Assembly: GCA_026225295.1 (NCBI GenBank)
Contig: JAMFSN010000208.1
Location: 1-46,199, forward strand
Direction of reading: 5' to 3'
DNA: 46,199 nt
DNA from: Frankia alni
GTDB lineage: Bacteria; Actinomycetota; Actinomycetes; Frankiales; Frankiaceae
In this document: piece by piece, positions 2,612 to 39,529 of the stretch
Numbering within the stretch: position 1 is the first letter of the stretch
Layout of the letters: each line of letters opens with the position of its first letter
The notes under the pieces: model-generated
Seen by the model: only the letters and a program-made list of their open reading frames with translations
Databases searched by the model: none
What the model was told of the DNA's origin: nothing
Made by a program: the position numbers and the translations under genes

Positions 2612-5600
2612 GTGCGCACACAACCGGTTGGCACCACCGACATCGATGCCGGTGGGGGTGCGACGGCGGTCGCGCCCGCCCCCTACCCGGAGGACGAGCG
2701 CCGACACCGCTCCGCCGGACCTTTCGATGCGGAACCGACCGCACTGCGCCGCACGCTGTCCACGCTGCGCGACCCGACGGGCTGGCGCGTCCGGACCAAG
2801 CTGATCGCCATCCTGGTGGTGCCGGTCATCGCCATCCTGGTGTTCGCGGGCAACGGGGCGGCCTCCCTGCTGACCAGCACCCGCGACGTGAACCGGATCG
2901 ACCGCCTCGACAACCTCAGCCAGCAGGCGCTGACCCTGTCGCTGGCCTTGGCGTACGAGCGCACCTACACGGTCGGGGCGATCGCGGCGGCCGACGCCAA
3001 GAACTCCGGGGTCACGAGTGCGTCCTCCAGCACCGGTACCGACACCAGTGTCATCAAGCAGCGCCGGGCTGACGTCGACCGCCTGATCGGTCCGTTCGAG
3101 GCGAAACTGAGGGCCGACGAGGGCTCCCTGTCGCCGGCCGCCCGGGCGATCGCCCTGTCCGCCCAGGACCGGCTGGACCGACTTTCCGGCCTGCGCGCGG
3201 CCGTCCTGACGATGCGTTCGATGGACTCGGCCCAACAGGCCTACACGACCGTCATCGACGGACTCACCAACCTGATCGGCGAGATCCCCCAGGGCAACGA
3301 CGACCGGACCTTGAACGCGTCCGTCCAGGCCGCGAGCGCGTTGGCTCAGGGTGGCGAGCTGGTGGCCCAGGAGTGGAGCCAGATCTACGGCCAGCTGCAG
3401 GCGCAGGCGGCCAACCCGACCGGCGTCACTTTCACCGCGGCCAACTTCCGCGCGTTCCTGAGCCTGGACACCCAGAAGGACAACGCGTTCGGGATCTTCC
3501 AGGACGCCGCCACCCCGAGCCAGACCGACCAGTACCGGGCGTTGCTGGCCAACGACGACGTCGCCCTGTCGAGCGACTACATCGAGGCCGTCCTCACCGC
3601 CCCGACCGGCCAGCCGCTTCCGACCAGCGTCCCAGCGGACAAGTGGGCGCAGTCGATGCACGTCTACGTCCAGCAGGTCGACAACCTCGCCTCGGACGTC
3701 CTGCTGCAGGCCAGCCACGGCCGGATCGACCAGCTGCGCAGCAACCTGCAGCGCCGCGCGTTGATCACCAGCCTACTGATCGTCCTGGTGCTCGGCGCGG
3801 CCCTGATCACCGCGGTGATCGTCGCCCGCTCGCTGGTCCGACCGCTGTTCGCGCTGCGGGGGGCGGCCCTGGACGTCGCCGGTCGACGCCTACCCGAGGC
3901 GGTCCGGCGATTGCGGGACTCTACCGATCAACGCATCGACGCCGACATCGAATCGGTGGGTATCGACACCGACGAGGAGATCGGCGAAGTCGCCCGGGCC
4001 TTCGACGAGGTGCACCGCGAAGCGGTCCGGCTGGCCTCCGAGCAGGCCGTCCTGCGAAACAACGTCAACGCGATGTTCGTGAACCTCTCCCGCCGCAGCC
4101 AGGGGCTGGTCGAGCGCCAGCTCCGGCTCATCGACGATCTGGAGAACCGCGAGCAGGACCCCGACCAGCTGTCCAACCTGTTCAAGCTCGACCACCTGGC
4201 CACCCGTATGCGGCGGAACAACGAGAGCCTGCTGGTGCTGGCGGGCACCGACACGGCCCGGCGCTGGAGCCACCCGGTGCCCATCAACGAAGTCGTGCTG
4301 GCCGCGGTCTCCGAGGTGGAGCAGTACACCCGGGTCAAGCAGACCGGCGCCGCCAGCCTGTCGATCGCCGGCCACGCCGTCAGCGACGTCGTCCACCTCA
4401 TCGCCGAGCTGCTCGAGAACGCGACCGCCTACTCGCCGCCGGCCACCGAGGTCTCGGTGATGAGTCACTCCCTCGGCCCCGGCGCCGGGGCGATGATCGA
4501 GATCGTCGACCACGGCATCGGCATGCCGGCCAAGGACCTGGAGCGGGTCAACGAGCGGCTGGCCAGCCCGCCGGTCATCGACGTGACCGTCTCCCGGACG
4601 ATGGGCCTGTTCGCGGTCGGCCGGCTCGCCGGCCGGCACGGCATCCGCGCCCAGCTCCGGGAATCCGACACGGGCGGCATCACCGCGCTCGTCCGGCTGC
4701 CGGCCCGCGTCGTCACCGGGGAGGACCCCGCCGACGGCCACGAGCTGGAGAACGAGACCACCGTCAACACCCGGGCGCTGCCCCGGGGCAACGCTCCGGA
4801 CCTCGGCCGCCCGGCCCTGGGGGCCGGCGACTCCGGGGCATTCCCCCTGGTCGGAGCGGGTACGAACGGAAACGGAGCCGGCTACGGAGCCAGCCTGAAC
4901 GGCAACCACGGCCCCGACCAGGACGACGATCTGGCCGATCTCGGTGAGATCACCGCCAACAGCTTCCTCGACGCCGATGCGGACGAGACGGCCGGGCGGC
5001 GCGACGACCGGGGCGCCTTCGAGCCGTTCAACGGTGGCGACCGCGATGACGACCGTCGCCGGCCGAACCCGGCTCCGGCCCGCTCGTCGTTCGAACCCCG
5101 CACCGCCGAGGATCCGCCGACCGGACCCGTCCGGCCCTTCACCGGACCGCAGCGGATACCGTCCGACGACGACCTGGCCGGGGCGGCCGGGTCCCGCAAC
5201 GGCTACCTGTCCAACGGTTTCGGCCCGAACGGGTACAGCCCCGACGTCCGCGAGGCCCAGCCCGGTCCGGACGCCCCGCCCCTGCCGCGCCGCGACCTGG
5301 GTGGTCGGTACCAGGGCCCGTCGGATCGCCCGAACCAGGGCTACACCGAGCCGGACCCCTCGATGACCGGCCCGATCGTGACCGGCCCGAGCTTCGTCCC
5401 GGGGACGGACCGGACCGACTACACCGGCTCCGACCTGACCGGCCCGATCCCGACCGGAACCGGTCCGCAGTTCCGCGATCCGAGCTTCACGGATCCGAAC
5501 TTCAGCGGACCGAACTTCACCGGCGCGGACTACCCGGATCCGAACTTCACGGATCCGAACCTCGTCCGACGGGACGACACCGGCCCGATCGGCCAGGCGC

Positions 5601-22190: not shown

Positions 22191-22207
22191 CCAACGAGAT
22201 CGGAATT

Positions 22208-22253
22208 GTCAACACCCCGTGGGCGCCACGCTCCCGGCCCGCGGGGTGTTGAC
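22208..22253. other. long hairpin in the groES/hydrolase divergent region
   Basis: GTCAACACCCCG (22208-22219) pairs perfectly with 22242-22253, and GGGC/GCCC extends the stem to about 17 bp with a 12-base loop. A terminator-like hairpin in a region between divergent genes is unexpected. It may insulate the two promoters. The left arm starts with GGAATTGTC, a string also found in the dispersed repeat described at 31608 and 38272. Confidence 0.65.
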
Positions 22254-29526: not shown

Positions 29527-31022
29527 GCCGCCGCGCGCGCGTCCCGGACATCCCGCACGGCGGATGCCAACGACGCTAGCAAGTCCGAGGCGGCCAGCGG
29601 CGGCGTCACCCGCTGGCCGGCGCGCCCGTGCAGGTAGGCCGCGACGCAACCGGCGTCCAGCGCGGGCAGTCCGGCGGCCAGCAGCGAACCGGCCAGACCG
29701 GTGAGCACGTCCCCGGTCCCGGCGGTCGCGAGCCAGGCCGTGCCGGTGGTGTTGACCCGGGTCCGGCCGTCGGGATCGACAATGATCGTCCGGTTGCCCT
29801 TGAGTAGCACCGTCACACCCAGGGCGGCGGCCGCGGCGCGAGCCGTGGCCAACCGGTCGGTCCGCAGCGCGTCGGTCGTGCGGTCCGGGTCCCAGCCCAG
29901 CGCGGTCGTGGTGAGGCGGGTGAACTCCCCCTCGTGCGGCGTGAGCAGGGTCGGAGCGGCCCGGCGGCGCAGTTCGGGATCGCCGGCCGCCGCCTCCAGC
30001 GCGCCGGCGTCGGCGAGGACCGGCACGTCGGTGCGCAGCAGGGCGGCGACGACCTGGTCGGTGGCCGGGCCGGGGGCCAGCCCCGATCCGACCGCCCAGG
30101 CCTGCACCCGCCCGGCGGCCAGCACCGCGTCGGCGTCGCCGGGTTCGATGGTGGTCGCCACGACCTCGGGATGCGCGGCCCGCACGGCGTCCGCCGCCCC
30201 CTGCTCGGAAACGAACCGCAGGTAGCCGGCCCCGCCCCGGAGGGCGCCGCCGGTCGCGAGCACCGCCGCGCCGGGATAGGCGGCGCTCCCGGCGACCAGG
30301 CCCAGCACACCCCGGGTGTACTTGGACGCACCGGCGTCGGGGTCCGGCAGGAGCGCGGCGACGTCGGCGTCGTCGAACGCCTCCAGCGCGGGCGGCCCCA
30401 GCTCGAGGCCGATCGGAACCAGCTCGACGGCCCCGGCGTGGACGGCGCCCGCCCCGACCAGCAGACCCGGCTTGCGCGTCCCGAACGTCACCGTGCTGCT
30501 GGCCCGCACCGCGGCACCGGTCACCGCGCCGGTGTCGGCGTCGACCCCGCTCGGCACGTCGACCGCGACGGTCCGCTCCGGACGGGCCAGGGCGGCCAGC
30601 GCGGCGTGCGGAGGCCGCAGACCACCCCGGCCGCCGATGCCGAGCAGGCCGTCGAGCACGAGATCGGCCTGGTCGAGGAGGCGGCGGGCGGCCTCATCGG
30701 GACCGTCCGGGCCGACCGAATGCCGCCGGCCGCCCGCCGCGAGCAGCGCCGCCGTCCCGGCCGGGTGGGTGGCGCCCGGCGCGAAGGCGTCGACCCGCGC
30801 CCCGCGGGCGGCCAGCCGGGCACCGGCCCACAACGCGTCCCCGCCGTTGTCACCCCCGCCGGCCAGGATCGCGACGCGCCGGCCGTACACCCGGCCGAGC
30901 CGGCGCACGACGTGGGCGACCAGCCCGGCGACCGCCCGCTGCATCAACGCGCCGTCCGGGAGGCCGACCAGCAGGGGCGCCTCCGCGGCCCGCACGTCCG
31001 CGACCGTGTGTGCGTACCTCAT
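29523..31022 (-). CDS. nnrE: bifunctional NAD(P)HX epimerase / ADP-dependent dehydratase
   Basis: A 499-residue YjeF protein that repairs hydrated NADH and NADPH. The N-terminal epimerase domain (about 1-205) has VAILAGGGDNGGDALWAGAR and VDVPSGVDADTG. The C-terminal ribokinase-like dehydratase has GVLGLVAGSAAYPGAAVLAT, LTPHEGEF, and the catalytic TAGTGDVLTGLAGSLLA. ATG 31022 (MRYAHTVADV) is the family start. There is no strong RBS. It is the first gene of the overlapped operon leading to tsaD. Alanine racemase, usually next to it in mycobacteria and streptomycetes, is absent here. Confidence 0.95.
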   Translation of the reverse strand: MRYAHTVADVRAAEAPLLVGLPDGALMQRAVAGLVAHVVRRLGRVYGRRVAILAGGGDNGGDALWAGARLAARGARVDAFAPGATHPAGTAALLAAGGRRHSVGPDGPDEAARRLLDQADLVLDGLLGIGGRGGLRPPHAALAALARPERTVAVDVPSGVDADTGAVTGAAVRASSTVTFGTRKPGLLVGAGAVHAGAVELVPIGLELGPPALEAFDDADVAALLPDPDAGASKYTRGVLGLVAGSAAYPGAAVLATGGALRGGAGYLRFVSEQGAADAVRAAHPEVVATTIEPGDADAVLAAGRVQAWAVGSGLAPGPATDQVVAALLRTDVPVLADAGALEAAAGDPELRRRAAPTLLTPHEGEFTRLTTTALGWDPDRTTDALRTDRLATARAAAAALGVTVLLKGNRTIIVDPDGRTRVNTTGTAWLATAGTGDVLTGLAGSLLAAGLPALDAGCVAAYLHGRAGQRVTPPLAASDLLASLASAVRDVRDARAAA

Positions 31023-31090: not shown

Positions 31091-31138
31091 CCCGGCCCGG
31101 CGAGTCGGCGGCCGCCCGGCCCGGCGAGTCGGCGGCCG
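31091..31138. repeat. 24-bp perfect tandem duplication
   Basis: CCCGGCCCGGCGAGTCGGCG plus GCCG occurs twice without change, at 31091-31114 and 31115-31138, between acpS and nnrE. It is noncoding. Confidence 0.9.
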
Positions 31139-31153
31139 GCCGAGCGGGGCCGG

Positions 31154-31510
31154 TCAGGACTCGACGACCACGAACGCGACGGCGACGCCCCCGTCGTGGG
31201 TCAGCGAGAGGTGCAGCGACCGGACGCCGAGCCGGTCGGCCGCCGCCGCAACCGTGCCGGTGATCCGCAGTGACGGGCGCCCGGACGGTTCCGGGACCAC
31301 CTCGGCGTCGTGCCAGAGCAGGCCGGGCGGCGCGCCCAGCGCCTTGGCCAGGGCCTCCTTGGCCGCGAAGCGGGCGGCCAGCCGTTCCGGCCGGGCGACC
31401 TCCCGTTCGGCCTCGGTCAGCACCCGGGCCAGCATCGCCGGGGTCCGCTCGATCGCGGCCGCGAACCGGGCCACGTCCGCCACGTCGACCCCGATCCCGA
31501 CCACCGCCAT
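31154..31510 (-). CDS. acpS: holo-[acyl-carrier-protein] synthase
   Basis: A 118-residue AcpS-type phosphopantetheinyl transferase that activates acyl carrier protein. It contains the Mg-binding [12 protein letters not shown] (Asp) and [12 protein letters not shown] (Glu), and ends with [17 protein letters not shown] 31510 is the family start, and upstream in-frame codons are not homologous. It lies 131 bp upstream of nnrE on the same strand. Confidence 0.95.
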
Positions 31511-31607
31511 CCCGCCACTGTGCCAGCCGGACAGCAGTGGCCGGAACCGGCCGGGCCCGTGTGGCGACAGCGGCGACAAGGCCGATCGGGACCATGCGAC
31601 CGGATTG

Positions 31608-31807
31608 TCAGGGTCAGCGACGCATTCCTGGCCGTGTCAACGCACATTTAGTGCACGCTGACCATGTCACTCGCCGGAAAACCCGCCACCGTCAGCGCAC
31701 CCGCACGTCCCCACGCCCACCGACAACGACAATTCCGACGCCCCCAACAAGCGTCATCGTCCCAGGACGTAGGGACGAACGGCGACCCTGCCAAACCCAA
31801 GCCACCC
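31608..31807 (+). repeat. dispersed 200-bp repeat, copy A
   Basis: Copy A aligns without gaps to the minus strand of 38471-38272 (copy C) at about 70% identity by eye (about 141 of 200). The best-conserved parts are GGTCAGCGACGCATTC-like (31613-31628), CTGACCATG (31658-31666), CGGAAAA (31675-31681) and CGACAATTCC (31728-31737). A further 79 bp (31605-31683) aligns to 36353-36431 (copy B). It fills most of the 343-bp acpS-glmS gap and reads against both genes. Substitutions are not concentrated at third codon positions, so the small ORF inside it is probably not a gene. The rest of the gap shows nothing else. Confidence 0.75.
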
Positions 31808-31853: not shown

Positions 31854-33713
31854 CTATTCGACCGTGACGGACTTGGCCAGGTTGCGGGGCTGGTCGACGT
31901 CGAGGCCGCGGGCCAGCGCGATTTCGCAGGCCAGCACCTGCAACGGCAGGGTCGTCACCAGCGGGGCCAGCAACGTCGGCGTGCGCGGCACCCGGATGAT
32001 GTGCGAGGCGTACGGCTCGACGTCGGTGTCGCCCTCCTCGGCGATGACGATGGTGCGCGCGCCCCGGGCCCGGACCTCCTGGATGTTGGACACGATCTTG
32101 CCGTGCAGGACCGACCGGCCCCGGGGTGACGGCACGATCACCACGACCGGCAGGCCGGGTTCGATCAGCGCGATCGGGCCGTGCTTGAGCTCGCCGGCCG
32201 GGAAGCCCTCGGCATGCATGTAGGCCAGTTCCTTGAGCTTCAGGGCCCCTTCCAGCGCCACCGGGTAGCCGACGTGCCGCCCCAGGAACAACACCGCCTT
32301 GGCGTCGGCCAGCTCGCGCGCGAGGGCCCGCACCGGCTCGATGGTGGCCAGCGTCTGCTCGACCAGCCCCGGCATCTGCTGGAGCATGGCGACGTTCGCG
32401 CCCACCTCGTCGCCGTAGAGCACGCCGCGCACCTGGGCCAGGAACAGCCCCACCAGCAGGCACGCCGCGACCTGGCCGAGGAAGGTCTTGGTGGCCGCGA
32501 CCCCGACCTCGGGGCCGCACCGGGTGTAGAGCACGGCGTCGGACTCACGCGGGATGGTCGATCCGTTGGTGTTGCAGATGGCCAGCACCCGGGCCTTCTG
32601 CTCCCGAGCGTGCTTGATCGCCATCAGCGTGTCGAGGGTTTCACCGCTCTGGCTGATCGCGATGACCAGCGTGGAGCGGTCCAGCACCGGGTCGCGGTAG
32701 CGGAACTCGGAGGCCATCTCGACCTCGCAGGGCAGCCGGGTCCAGTGCTCGACGGCGTACTTCGCGATCAACCCGGCGTGGTACGCCGTGCCGCAGGCGA
32801 CGATGAACACCTTGTCGACGTCGCGGAAGTCCTGCTCGGACAGCCGTTCCTCATCCAGGACGATCCCGCCGTCGTCCGACAGGCGACCGCGCAACGTGTC
32901 GGCCAGGGCCGTCGGCTGCTCGCTGATCTCCTTGAGCATGAAGTACGGGAAGCCGCCCTTTTCGGCCGCGCTCACGTCCCAGTCCACGTGGAACGGGCGT
33001 CCCTCGACCGGCGTGCCGGCGAAGTCGGTGAGCGTCACGCCCGCGCGGGTCGCCTCCACGATCTGGTTCTGGCCGATCTCCAGCGCGGCGCGGGTGTGGG
33101 CGATGAACGCCGAGACATCACTGGCCAGGAACGTCTCGCCGTCCCCGAGGCCGACCACCAGGGGGCTGTTGCGGCGGGCCGCGACGACCGTGTCCGGGCT
33201 CCCGGAGTGCGTCACGACCAGGGTGAAGGCCCCCTCGAGCCGGCCGCAGACGACCCGCAGGGCGTCCGCGATCGTCACGGTCGGCTCGGCGGCCGACAAC
33301 GCGTCCTCGATCAGGTGCGCGACGACCTCGGTGTCGGTCTCGCTGGCCAGCTGGTGGCCAGCGCGCTCCAGCTCGGCCCGGAGGGCGGCGAAGTTCTCGA
33401 TGATCCCGTTGTGGATGACCGCCACCGTGCCGGTGCAGTCGACGTGCGGGTGGGCGTTGGCGTCGGTCGGCCCGCCGTGGGTCGCCCACCGGGTGTGACC
33501 CATCCCGGTGGTGCCCGCCCAGCCGTCCGTTTCGGCCAGCACCTTCTCCAGGTTGGCCAGCTTTCCGGCCCGGCGCCGGGTCCGGAGCGAGCCGTCCGGA
33601 TCGACAACCGCGATCCCCGCCGAGTCGTAACCGCGATACTCCAGCCGTCGCAGGCCCTCGAGCGCGACCTCAACGGCTGGCTTCCCACCGACGTAGCCAA
33701 TGATCCCGCACAT
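31854..33713 (-). CDS. glmS: glutamine-fructose-6-phosphate aminotransferase (isomerising)
   Basis: A 619-residue enzyme making glucosamine-6-phosphate, the entry to UDP-GlcNAc and peptidoglycan. The N-terminal glutaminase domain starts MCGIIGYVG (Cys2 is the nucleophile), with YRGYDSAGIAV and HTRWATHG. Two SIS domains follow (VACGTAYHAGLIAKY, SQSGETLDTLMA and FLGRHVGYPVALEGALKLKE), ending in AKSVTVE. The start is fixed by Cys2. There is no RBS. A TAGGCT box ends seven bases before the ATG, so a leaderless start is likely. glmM lies 97 bp upstream. Confidence 0.98.
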   Translation of the reverse strand: MCGIIGYVGGKPAVEVALEGLRRLEYRGYDSAGIAVVDPDGSLRTRRRAGKLANLEKVLAETDGWAGTTGMGHTRWATHGGPTDANAHPHVDCTGTVAVIHNGIIENFAALRAELERAGHQLASETDTEVVAHLIEDALSAAEPTVTIADALRVVCGRLEGAFTLVVTHSGSPDTVVAARRNSPLVVGLGDGETFLASDVSAFIAHTRAALEIGQNQIVEATRAGVTLTDFAGTPVEGRPFHVDWDVSAAEKGGFPYFMLKEISEQPTALADTLRGRLSDDGGIVLDEERLSEQDFRDVDKVFIVACGTAYHAGLIAKYAVEHWTRLPCEVEMASEFRYRDPVLDRSTLVIAISQSGETLDTLMAIKHAREQKARVLAICNTNGSTIPRESDAVLYTRCGPEVGVAATKTFLGQVAACLLVGLFLAQVRGVLYGDEVGANVAMLQQMPGLVEQTLATIEPVRALARELADAKAVLFLGRHVGYPVALEGALKLKELAYMHAEGFPAGELKHGPIALIEPGLPVVVIVPSPRGRSVLHGKIVSNIQEVRARGARTIVIAEEGDTDVEPYASHIIRVPRTPTLLAPLVTTLPLQVLACEIALARGLDVDQPRNLAKSVTVE

Positions 33714-35642: not shown

Positions 35643-36086
35643 CTACTGCGCGACCTGGTTGATCTCGAACTCGGCAGGCTGCTGAGCGGTGTGCGGGTGA
35701 GTGGGACCCGCGTACACCTTCAGCTTGCGCGCCTGGGCGCGGCCGAGCTTGTTCTTGGGCAGCATGCCCTTGATCGCCTTCTCGACAATGACCTGGGGCC
35801 GGGTGTCGAGCAGCGAGCCGTACGAGGTGCTGCGCAGACCACCCGGGAAGCCCGAGTGACGGTGGTAGAGCGCCTGGTCCCGCTTGTTGCCGGTCAGGGC
35901 CACCTTGCCTGCGTTGATGATGACGACGAAGTCACCGGTGTCCAGGTGCGGGGCGAAATATGCCTTGTGCTTGCCTCGCAGCAGTTTGGCGGCCTCGCTG
36001 GCCAGCCGGCCGAGCACGACGTCGGACGCGTCGATCACGTGCCAGTTGCGCTGGACGTCTGACGGCTTGGGCTGGTACGTGCGCAC
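35643..36086 (-). CDS. rplM: 50S ribosomal protein L13
   Basis: A 147-residue L13: [58 protein letters not shown], and [23 protein letters not shown] 36086 has GAAGAAGG upstream. The longer reading frame to 36530 is leader and repeat sequence, not coding. It is the first gene of rplM-rpsI-glmM. Confidence 0.98.
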
Positions 36087-36604
36087 AGGTCTGCCTTCTT
36101 CGTCGCCTTGCTCGATGGGGCCGCCCACGAGGGGCGACAGCACGGTCAATTCCCGCGCAGGGAACGTGTCACGCGCAGCAGTCTTTGAGGTTACCAGGCG
36201 ACCCACCCGGGGCGTCGTGCCGCCCGCGCGTCGCGACCCTGAGCGCTGCAGTTGACATCGCTGGCGCAGCCTACAGCGGCCGCTGACGCCGCCACTTCTC
36301 GATCCCGGCCCGGGCGCAGGCGGCACGGGTGGTGCGGGTGGTGCGGGGGAACGAGTCAGCATCAGCGCGCCTTTGGCGGCAGTGTCAACGCCTAGTCGAT
36401 CTTCTTTGACGCTGCCAATCACCGGAAAGCCGTAACTGGCAGCGTCCCGGCCCGCTATGACCGGCGCCGACCCTGACGAACTGACGCCGCCCGCTGACGA
36501 CGTGCACCGACGCCGCCGACCCACCCTCATAGTCGTCCTCAGCGGGCGCTGGTCGGCCCGTTGACACTGACGGCCGCCGCCTCTGGCCGCCAGGCGCCAG
36601 CCGA
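36087..36604. other. 518-bp gap between rplM and the ABC-F gene
   Basis: No gene is supported. The rplM-proximal part (36087-36200) is the expected leader. A TTGACC (36149-36144, minus strand) has no clear -10, so I do not call a promoter. The rest holds repeat copy B (36353-36431) and, on the minus strand at about 36576-36530, a second similar GTGTCAACG...CGCTGA arrangement that may be another fragment. Confidence 0.5.
36353..36431 (+). repeat. dispersed repeat, partial copy B
   Basis: Aligns without gaps to 31605-31683 at about 63% by eye (50 of 79), including an exact GTGTCAACGC (36382-36391) and CCGGAAAGCC (36422-36431) at the same 30-base distance as in copy A. Within it GGCAGTGTCAA (36378-36388) can pair with TTGACGCTGCC (36406-36416), giving an 11-bp stem with one G-U. 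It reads towards the ABC-F gene, opposite to copy C on its other side. Confidence 0.6.
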
Positions 36605-38203
36605 TCAGACGGCGGCAGCCGTGTCCCAGACCGGCTCGGGAGCCTCGTAGACCCGGCCGTCCGCGCCGAAGACCAGGTAACGGTCGAAGGACCGGGCGAA
36701 CCAGCGGTCGTGGGTGACGGCCAGCACGGTGCCCTCGAACGCGTCCAACCCGTCCTGCAACGCCTCGGCGCTGGCCAGGTCGAGGTTGTCGGTCGGCTCA
36801 TCGAGCAGCAGCATCGTCGAGCCGGCGATCTCCAGCAGCAGCACCTGGAACCGGGCCTGCTGGCCCCCGGAAAGGGTCTGGAACGACTGGTCGGCCTGGT
36901 GGTGCAGCTCGTAGCGACGCAGGGCGGAGATGGCCCGCCCCCGGTCGTGCGCCTCGTGCCACAGGATGTCGACCAGGGTCCGCCCGAACAGCTCGGGATG
37001 GGCATGGGTCTGGGCGAACAGCCCCGGCACGACCCGGGCGCCGAGCTTCACCCCACCGGTGTGCCGGACCGTCTCATCCCCACCCAGCAGCCGCAGGAAG
37101 TGGGACTTGCCCGACCCGTTGGCCCCCAGGACGGCCACCCGCTCGCCGAAGAAGACCTCCAGGTCGAACGGATCGGTCAACCCGTCGAAGGCCAGCCCGG
37201 TGCAGGTCAGGGCGCGCAGCCCGGTCCGTCCGCCGCGCAACCGCATCGTCACCTTCTGCTCGACCGGCCGTTCGGGCGGCGGGCCGGCCGCCTCGTAGCG
37301 GGCCAACCGGGTCTGCATCGCCCGGTACTTCTGGGCCATCGCCTCGGAAATGCTGGCCTGGATCTTCAACGTGTTGACCAGCTCCCTGAGCCGGCGGTGC
37401 TCCTCCTCCCAGCGCCGGTGCAGCTCGTCGAGGCGCTCCAGCCGGGCCCGGCGGGCCTCCGGGTAACTGGCGAAGCCCGCCCCGTGGGTCCAGGCCGAAT
37501 GGGCCTCGAGCGTGACGACCCGGGTCGCGGTGTTGGCGACCAGCTCCCGGTCGTGGGAGACGAACAGGACGGTCTTGGCGGTGGCCCGCAGCGCGCCCTC
37601 CAGCCACCGCTTACCGGGCACGTCGAGGTAGTTGTCGGGCTCGTCGAGCAGGAGCACGGCGTCCGGACCGCGCAGCAGCGCCTCCAGGACCAGCCGCTTC
37701 TGCTCGCCCCCGGACAGTGTCCGGACCTCGCGGTACTGACAGCGCTCGAACGGGAGCCCCAGCGCGGCGGTCGTGCAGGTGTCCCACAGCACCTCCGCGT
37801 CGTAGCCGCCCGCGTCGCCCCAGTCGGCCAGGGCCTGGGCGTAGCGCATGGCCACCGCGTCCTGCTCGCTCTCCATCATCGCGAGCTCGGCCGCGTCGAC
37901 CTCCGCCGCCGCGTCCCGCACGGCGGGCGAGGCGACCGAGGCCAGCAGGTCCCGGACGGAGGTCTCGTCGCGCACCGAGCCGATGAACTGCCGCATCACT
38001 CCCAGGCCGCCGTCGCGGCCGATGGCGCCGCCGGCCGGGGCCAGGTCGCCGACGATGATCCGCAGCAGGGTCGTCTTGCCGGCCCCGTTCGCGCCGACCA
38101 GGACCGCGACGGCACCCTCGCCGACCCGGAAGGAGACATCGTCGAACAGCACCTGCCCGTCGGGGAGGCGGTAGGACAGATGCGAGACGTCCAGATAACC
38201 CAC
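36605..38203 (-). CDS. ABC-F family ATPase (translation factor or antibiotic-resistance type)
   Basis: A 532-residue protein with two ABC domains and no TM segments, so it acts on ribosomes rather than in transport. First domain: Walker [13 protein letters not shown], signature [13 protein letters not shown], Walker [13 protein letters not shown]. The linker is a charged coiled coil (about 240-300). Second domain: [24 protein letters not shown] and [12 protein letters not shown]. The usual ABC-F DEPTNHLD is altered in both. The start is uncertain: GTG 38203 ([13 protein letters not shown]) fits the family, but no RBS is visible. Neighbours are ribosomal operons, yet ABC-F is not normally found between truA and rplM. 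It is flanked by inverted repeat copies. Confidence 0.88.
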
Positions 38204-38271: not shown

Positions 38272-38471
38272 GGCCGGCATCGGTTCGGCAGAGTCGGCGT
38301 TTGTTGTGTGGCGCGGGGACCATGACACTTCCGGGGGGCCACGGAATTGTCGTGGTCGGCGGGCGCGGGGATGTGCGGGGACACTGACAGCGACGTCTTT
38401 TCCGACAACTGGCATGATCAGCGCACGGGCAACGCGCGCTGACGCAGTCAAGAACGCACCGCTGACGCTGC
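38272..38471 (-). repeat. dispersed 200-bp repeat, copy C
   Basis: The minus-strand partner of copy A (31608-31807), with no gaps over 200 bp. It contains a perfect TCAGCGC/GCGCTGA inverted repeat (38443-38418). It lies in the 405-bp truA to ABC-F gap and reads in the same direction as the ABC-F gene, ending about 70 bp before its start. An ORF starting at ATG 38415 runs through the ABC-F start in another frame. The remaining gap (38472-38608) shows CTGACGC-type motifs and nothing else I can name. Confidence 0.75.
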
Positions 38472-38608
38472 CACTCCGGCCGCTCCCACCCGATCGGGCC
38501 GGTCCACCGCGGCCGGCCCGGCCAGATCCCGTATGCGTCGCTGCCGGCGGGCTATGCAGCGCGCGAGGACACTGCCGGTCTGCTCGTCGGCCGGCGCGGG
38601 CGGCCGGC

Positions 38609-39529
38609 TCAGCCGGACGGGGTGGTGGGGACGCGCACCTTGCGGGTTTCGGCGGCCCGCGTCGCCAGATCGGTGTCCGGCGGGTAGCGGATCTCGATCA
38701 GCGTCAGGCCGTGCGCGGGCGCGACGGTGACCGCCGGGTCGCGCATCCCGCGGGCCAGCACCTCGCCCGGCCAGTCGGCGCCCTTCCGGCCTTCCCCCAC
38801 CGCGACCAGGGATCCGACCAGGCCCCGGACCATCGAATGGCAGAAGGCGTCCGCCTCGACATCGGCGATGATGACCCCTTCGGGGTCGCGGCTGACGTCC
38901 AGGCGGAGCAGGGTCCGCCGGGTGGTTGAGAACTCGCGCCGACGGCAGAACGCCGCGAAGTCGTGCTCCCCGATCAGGTGCAGCGCGGCGTGCCGCATCC
39001 GGTCGGCGTCGAGCGGCCGGGGAATGGCGTACGTGTCGTGCCTACGCAGCGGGGCCGCCCCGTACGGGGCGTCGCTGATCCGGTAGAGGTAGCGCCGGGA
39101 CAACGCCGAGAACCGCGCGTCGAAGCCGGCCGGGGCGGGACCCAGGCCGGTGATCCGCACCGAGCGGTCGAGCACGCCGTTGAGCCGGCGGGCCAGCCCG
39201 CCGAGCACAACGTCGTCGGGCAGGTCGACGTGGGCGACCTGGGCCCGGGCGTGAACGCCCGCGTCGGTGCGCCCGGCCACCGTGAGCCGGACCGCGCTCA
39301 ACCGGGTGACGCGCATGAGCCCGTCTTCGATGTCGCCCTGAACGGTGCGCTGACCCGGTTGGCGGGCCCAGCCCGCGAACCCGGTGCCGTCGTAGCCGAT
39401 GTCCAGCCGGAGCCGGACCAGACCGTCGGCGGCCCCCGGAGGCCCGGTGAAGCCTCCGGGGCCGCGCGCTTCGGTGAGGCTGCGTGCTCCGGTGACGCCG
39501 CGTACTCCGGTGAAAGAACGCCGGTTCAC
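38609..39529 (-). CDS. truA: tRNA pseudouridine(38-40) synthase TruA
   Basis: A 306-residue pseudouridine synthase modifying tRNA positions 38-40. It contains LRLDIGYDGTGFAGWARQPG, the catalytic Asp89 in AGRTDAGVHARAQVAHVDL, RYLYRI, and FCRRREFSTTRRTL. The first 37 residues are an extension made partly of degenerate hexapeptide repeats (FTGVRG, VTGARS, LTEARG) encoded by three 18-bp tandem repeats (39461-39514). GTG 39529 has no clear RBS and follows rplQ by 21 bp. Confidence 0.95.
   Translation of the reverse strand: MNRRSFTGVRGVTGARSLTEARGPGGFTGPPGAADGLVRLRLDIGYDGTGFAGWARQPGQRTVQGDIEDGLMRVTRLSAVRLTVAGRTDAGVHARAQVAHVDLPDDVVLGGLARRLNGVLDRSVRITGLGPAPAGFDARFSALSRRYLYRISDAPYGAAPLRRHDTYAIPRPLDADRMRHAALHLIGEHDFAAFCRRREFSTTRRTLLRLDVSRDPEGVIIADVEADAFCHSMVRGLVGSLVAVGEGRKGADWPGEVLARGMRDPAVTVAPAHGLTLIEIRYPPDTDLATRAAETRKVRVPTTPSG

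Follow-up and report, generated by a model that had tools for sequence, protein, structure and literature searches.

A palindromic repeat of about 200 bp dispersed at gene ends in a Frankia genome

Three copies of the repeat in the window

The DNA analysed here, hereafter the window, is a stretch of 46,199 nucleotides from Frankia alni (GenBank assembly GCA_026225295.1, contig JAMFSN010000208.1). Three of its intergenic gaps hold copies of the same repeat. Copy A sits between acpS (31154-31510, minus strand) and glmS (31854-33713, minus strand), copy B between rplM (35643-36086, minus strand) and an ABC-F gene (36605-38203, minus strand), and copy C between the same ABC-F ATPase gene and a truA-like gene (38609-39529, minus strand). 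The copies and their parts are listed below; the nhmmer searches used a profile built from 37 copies of the genome, and bit scores are those of the covariance model.

31607-31792, minus strand: copy A, full 186-bp core (nhmmer, E 5e-43; covariance model, 166.8 bits); about 31600-31798 including the conserved ends
31691-31792, minus strand: palindromic half of copy A, profile columns 1-102 (profile compared with its own reverse complement)
31636-31662, minus strand: hairpin III of copy A, GTCAACGCAC..GTGCACGCTGAC (sequence; helix 3)
36355-36477, minus strand: copy B (nhmmer, E 1e-18; pairwise alignment; covariance model, 82.4 bits)
38287-38472, plus strand: copy C, full 186-bp core (nhmmer, E 1e-45; covariance model, 175.2 bits)
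38287-38388, plus strand: palindromic half of copy C, profile columns 1-102 (profile palindrome comparison)
38417-38443, plus strand: hairpin III of copy C, profile columns 131-157 (from the profile columns)
38527-38581, plus strand: possible extra hairpin module adjoining copy C, profile columns 53-107 (weak match, E 0.004)

The first-pass annotation had aligned A and C by eye over 200 bp, with no gap and at about 70% identity. This alignment is borne out: A (31608-31807, plus strand) and C (38471-38272, minus strand) share 141 of 200 bases, the second-best 200-bp placement of A in the window reaches 84/200, and the maximum over eight base-shuffled windows is 85/200. As for copy B, first described as a third, partial copy, it is a genuine copy but more than a fragment, as pairwise alignment finds both ends kept and about 62 bp missing internally. 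As we read the sequence, the deletion points appear to be two GGGACG direct repeats. A further small fragment suggested at 22201-22227 turned out to be a chance resemblance, with no profile match there and GTGGGCG alone occurring 34 times in the window, on both strands.

The core of the element is 186 bp long, about 200 bp with its conserved ends, and aligns almost gaplessly over 37 copies, with a GC content of 69%. On the profile strand the ends read CGGTTT/GGCAGGGTC... and ...CGCTGACGCTGCC/GCTCC; both are inverted versions of GGCAGnGTCAGCG, and the element thus carries terminal inverted repeats. The short inverted repeats noted at first are real: an imperfect palindrome with its centre near column 51 spans columns 1-102 and scores 43 bits against its own reverse complement, the column-shuffled maximum being -12 +/- 8. 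A second hairpin is formed by columns 131-157 (helix 3, 88% of cells paired over 37 copies), and hairpins of this kind also lie beside some copies. Scattered conserved blocks are built on GTCAnCG/CGnTGAC. In one young subfamily the homologous stretch reaches roughly 340 bp, and its tails, where contigs break, suggest a tandem arrangement.

Two other features were seen in this part of the window. Just downstream of acpS, at 31092-31145, there is a tandem duplication of a 26-bp unit, approximate in length (GGCCCGGCGAGTCGGCGGCCG...). ARAGORN calls a tRNA-Thr (cgt) at 29902-29991, inside a predicted YjeF/NAD(P)H-hydrate dehydratase gene and on the opposite strand; it is unreported by Rfam at the gathering threshold and is probably spurious.

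Copy number, range and genomic placement

The genome-wide search proposed by the first-pass annotation returned about 50-60 further copies; an absence of such copies, which the annotation had named as refuting, did not materialise. A BLAST search of the genome with copy A gives 46 matches, of which 40 have E below 1e-6. A covariance model built from 37 oriented copies reports 97 places at E <= 0.01, a count that includes reverse-strand matches to the same copy, the element being partly palindromic. With a profile HMM run on the regions fetched by these searches, 59 non-overlapping copies score above 50 bits, which is an upper figure for this set, as a few copies at contig ends could be one locus viewed twice; weaker pieces come in addition. 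By set cut-offs, 46 of the 59 are essentially full length. All these numbers derive from sequence searches of the genome, not from a full genome scan. Twenty-four of the 59 copies lie at most 250 bp from a contig end, versus 4.9% expected. This excess is in keeping with breaks caused in the assembly by near-identical or tandem copies, and the element marks assembly breaks in this genome.

No copy was found with the covariance model in 34 other Frankiaceae, nor was any found in about 197 other genomes of the same class. An exact-match pattern that hits 27 of the 37 known copies has no match among 395 further genomes of the phylum; when two mismatches are tolerated, relatives give 0-9 scattered matches versus 54 in this genome. 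Phage and plasmid collections hold no copy, and a single match of the pattern to a viral contig was dismissed as chance. The family may be common to close relatives, this genome being the sole one of its genus searched; the closest named GlmS relative is Candidatus Frankia meridionalis, at 85%. Neither Rfam nor the literature searched contains a match or a description, and the initial view of an undescribed, diverged and dispersed repeat stands, its length being about 190-200 bp.

All 59 copies are intergenic, and none overlaps by more than 9 bases a gene called by the codon-usage gene caller, which was trained on the window and applied to every fetched region. This placement and the single-base indels found among the copies exclude a protein-coding origin, in line with the earlier proposal that the signal lies in the nucleic acid. 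Where both neighbours are known (n=35), 20 copies lie in convergent gaps, 15 in co-directional gaps and none in divergent ones. By comparison, the background gaps of at least 200 bp in 40 contigs not chosen for the element (318 kb) comprise 13 convergent, 34 co-directional and 22 divergent ones. The Fisher p values for the avoidance of divergent gaps (1e-4) and the preference for convergent gaps (4e-5) are only approximate, because their background of gaps of at least 150 bp (15 convergent, 25 divergent, 45 co-directional) includes a co-directional count estimated by hand. Neither trend is likely to have arisen by chance.

Among the 15 co-directional copies, 10 run parallel to their genes and 5 run against them. 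Orientation relative to the neighbours is thus mixed, and the opposition to flanking genes first noted in the window is no property of the family. Many convergent gaps in the genome have no copy, and therefore the element is not a general terminator of this genome. A general terminator code made of GTCAnCG was also considered and rejected, since the motif is equally frequent in genes and between them (1.2 vs 0.9-1.2 per kb).

Dispersal and column-wise constraint

One subfamily, whose members are mostly 88-98% identical, adjoins unrelated genes, including those for a thiolase, an HTH regulator, a class I tRNA synthetase, a short-chain dehydrogenase and a protein that has both nitroreductase and DBI_PRT domains. 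As this young subfamily is found at several unrelated loci, the element has spread by copying. The flanks of its members are unmatched outside the element, except for those on contigs C142 and C270. Next to the copies on these two contigs, a 369-bp flank is shared at 98% (C270 1-369 and C142 2903-3271, in coordinates of the fetched regions), possibly as the result of a larger duplication or an assembly ambiguity. The glmS locus of named relatives has no copy, and the glmS-acpS gap measures 343 bp here, including the 200-bp element, versus 85-120 bp in Blastococcus and Geodermatophilus. To judge from these gap lengths, the difference would be consistent with an insertion; closer Frankia relatives carry other genes in this interval.

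Among 42 copies we detected no target-site duplication, the best z being 2.7 among about 2000 combinations of offset and length. The RAYT transposase (Y1 transposase, PF01797) has no match in the genome itself, and matches were obtained in 5 of 14 control genomes. The proteins adjoining the youngest copies, which are the only neighbours examined in this respect, are ordinary enzymes or have no Pfam hits, and no autonomous parent was found beside these copies.

The copies diverge from their consensus by 24% on average and from one another by 33% (median), and internal branches make up 17% of the length of their tree, which is star-like. Changes are distributed unevenly along the element. Letting the rate vary among columns raises lnL by 125, and per-column divergence in one half of the copies correlates with that in the other (split-half Spearman 0.75 vs 0.00 +/- 0.08 for a neutral-star null), a correlation that persists among G/C columns taken alone. 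No more than one change is seen in 35 columns, versus 0.3 such columns expected, and 34 of the 46 full copies are free of any net indel; these counts leave out part of the strongly deleted copies, whose scores are low. Furthermore, the variable sites within groups of young copies avoid the columns that are conserved elsewhere (p 2e-6).

The simplest reading of this constraint is purifying selection on the resident copies. Alternatively, every surviving lineage may have been kept competent for transposition, an idea that the scarcity of decayed copies makes less likely. The constraint could also stem in part from the requirements of mobility instead of a host function. It is often by the near-identity of their copies that small palindromic repeats are recognised. 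In this family, copies with about 33% pairwise divergence have nevertheless kept their length and 35 near-fixed positions, and they provide a natural mutagenesis map of what the repeat needs.

Interpretation and relation to known repeats

We propose that the element is a lineage-private, non-autonomous and non-coding palindromic repeat that was dispersed by copying, with most copies now held by selection and playing a role at gene ends; we give this reading an even chance of being correct. Copying, by a putative enzyme, has dispersed the element to more than 50 intergenic sites, and selection on sequence and length would now hold most copies in place. Copies would be tolerated or retained mainly behind gene ends, in either orientation. 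The data themselves establish a repeat family, its palindromic form, its dispersal, its location at gene ends and the constraint on its columns. From this location, the orientation independence and the constraint, we infer a role in termination or DNA topology, and the benefit of the constraint to the host and the existence of a mobilising enzyme are likewise presumed. The most likely mode of action would be an orientation-independent one, in which a multi-hairpin, multi-site element closes transcription units from both sides. It might do so as a bidirectional terminator or as a 3'-end stabiliser in RNA. Alternatively, it might be a site for a DNA-binding protein that absorbs transcription-driven supercoiling, by analogy with BIMEs, which bind gyrase (PMC3733652).

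It is tempting to go further and to regard the family as an undescribed kind of bacterial element. More than 50 dispersed quasi-palindromes of about 200 bp, each selected in place at gene ends in either orientation, would then form a lineage-private, genome-wide transcript-end or DNA-topology system derived from a domesticated mobile repeat. We put this stronger version forward as a tentative possibility.

A purely selfish MITE with terminal inverted repeats GGCAGnGTCAGCG...CGCTGACGCTGCC is an unlikely but serious competitor. Copies would then be missing from genes and divergent promoter gaps because insertions there are harmful, and the constraint would reflect transposition competence. The inverted ends, the fact that one subfamily recently reached unrelated loci and the longer glmS-acpS gap relative to Blastococcus and Geodermatophilus all suit such an element. 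However, the 42 copies give no target-site duplication signal and the young copies examined have no autonomous parent beside them. Moreover, an old family of this kind should consist mostly of dead, decayed copies, whereas most of those found are full length and constrained.

Rather than a repeat with a gene-end role, the family might represent a structured RNA read from the profile strand, either a non-coding RNA gene or an RNA motif, which we consider improbable. Compared with dinucleotide shuffles, folding is moderately better for both strands (mean z -2.5 and -2.0). The column-shuffled RNAalifold control favours the profile strand (-89 vs -64 +/- 4, compared with -69 vs -52 +/- 5 for the other strand), and on that strand substitutions in stems lean towards keeping G-U (odds ratio 1.6, p 0.03). 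Yet the default RNAalifold consensus reaches only -13 kcal/mol, no conserved promoter-like sequence precedes the element, Rfam gives no match, and the copies are of mixed orientation relative to their neighbours. The covariation check suggested for a structured RNA came out negative, with 4 two-sided pair changes observed versus 4.2 +/- 1.5 in shuffles, 312 of 500 of which reach the observed value. A covarying RNA was rejected on these grounds and because pairs with mutual information do not stack into helices; the column-shuffle energy test alone had looked supportive.

It is also quite doubtful that the element is a fixed-length DNA site for a single nucleoprotein complex (gyrase, condensin or a recombinase), with the palindrome representing symmetrical half-sites. 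Its fixed length, conserved GTCAnCG/CGnTGAC blocks and orientation independence would fit, as would the same non-complementary G-T position kept inside the main stem in 37 of 37 copies, which indicates that letters are maintained, not pairing. Nevertheless, the conserved columns show no 10.5-bp helical phasing (p 0.90), and no known motif was matched. Judging from the copies themselves, the evidence says that letters are kept more than pairs, and readings in terms of RNA and of DNA would both be compatible with it.

Coming back to a dispersed palindromic repeat with a gene-end role, several known families resemble it. ERIC/IRU and similar repeats are intergenic, multi-copy, non-coding imperfect palindromes with long stem-loops (PMC2229807). 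The element shares the size class (100-200 bp), intergenic location, palindromic form, long stem-loops, copy multiplicity and non-coding nature of the group made up of ERIC/IRU, YPAL/RU-2, Correia/NEMIS, RPE and RUP. Unlike them, it is GC-rich instead of A+T-rich, has no terminal TA and no detected target-site duplication, and displays strong column-wise constraint at 24% divergence from the consensus. This comparison was made on described properties, the element's sequence having been compared only with Rfam.

REP/BIME elements lie between convergent or co-directional genes, downstream of coding regions, and consist of palindromic modules that form clusters; GTAG-REPs are the RAYT-associated class, and CGTC-REPs are reported without RAYT (PMC3733652). 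The element resembles these GTAG- or CGTC-tagged palindromes and REPINs in its gaps, its position behind genes, its palindromic modules and its clusters. In contrast to their 20-40 bp with one stem-loop, its unit is 186 bp long and has a fixed, nearly gapless architecture, and intergenic sequence at large shows no enrichment of GTCAnCG modules. Unlike RAYT-linked REPs, it has no RAYT/Y1 transposase in its genome, and a RAYT-driven REP was rejected on both the missing PF01797 match and the unit size. With the TIR-bearing MITEs of DDE transposases, including TIMEs, it has in common inverted ends and non-autonomous dispersal; it differs from them in the target-site duplication, which was sought in vain, and no autonomous parent was seen beside the young copies examined. 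Because it fails the size and RAYT tests for RAYT-REPs and the target-site duplication test for DDE-type MITEs, we regard the element as a new variant of the broad kind of small intergenic palindromic repeats. At most, it may work like BIMEs or ERICs by analogy. If the constraint serves the host, the family would clearly illustrate how a mobile repeat became, in just one lineage, a regulatory or structural element acting genome-wide.

Other hairpin repeats were encountered along the way. In the same genome, shorter and related palindromic units (about columns 58-175 of the profile) occur in clusters that look like a second, smaller repeat family and are listed here by contig:

C213, 18650-19560: cluster of shorter palindromic units
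C254, 26160-26580: cluster of shorter palindromic units
C260, 16388-16935: cluster of shorter palindromic units

In Frankia sp. QA3, hairpin repeats of a different kind (GGCGCTTCGCGGGG..., AGATCGCCTTCGGCGATCT) form a tandem array downstream of glmS (about 4975-5255 of the fetched region), and other Frankia may thus have gene-end hairpin repeats of their own.
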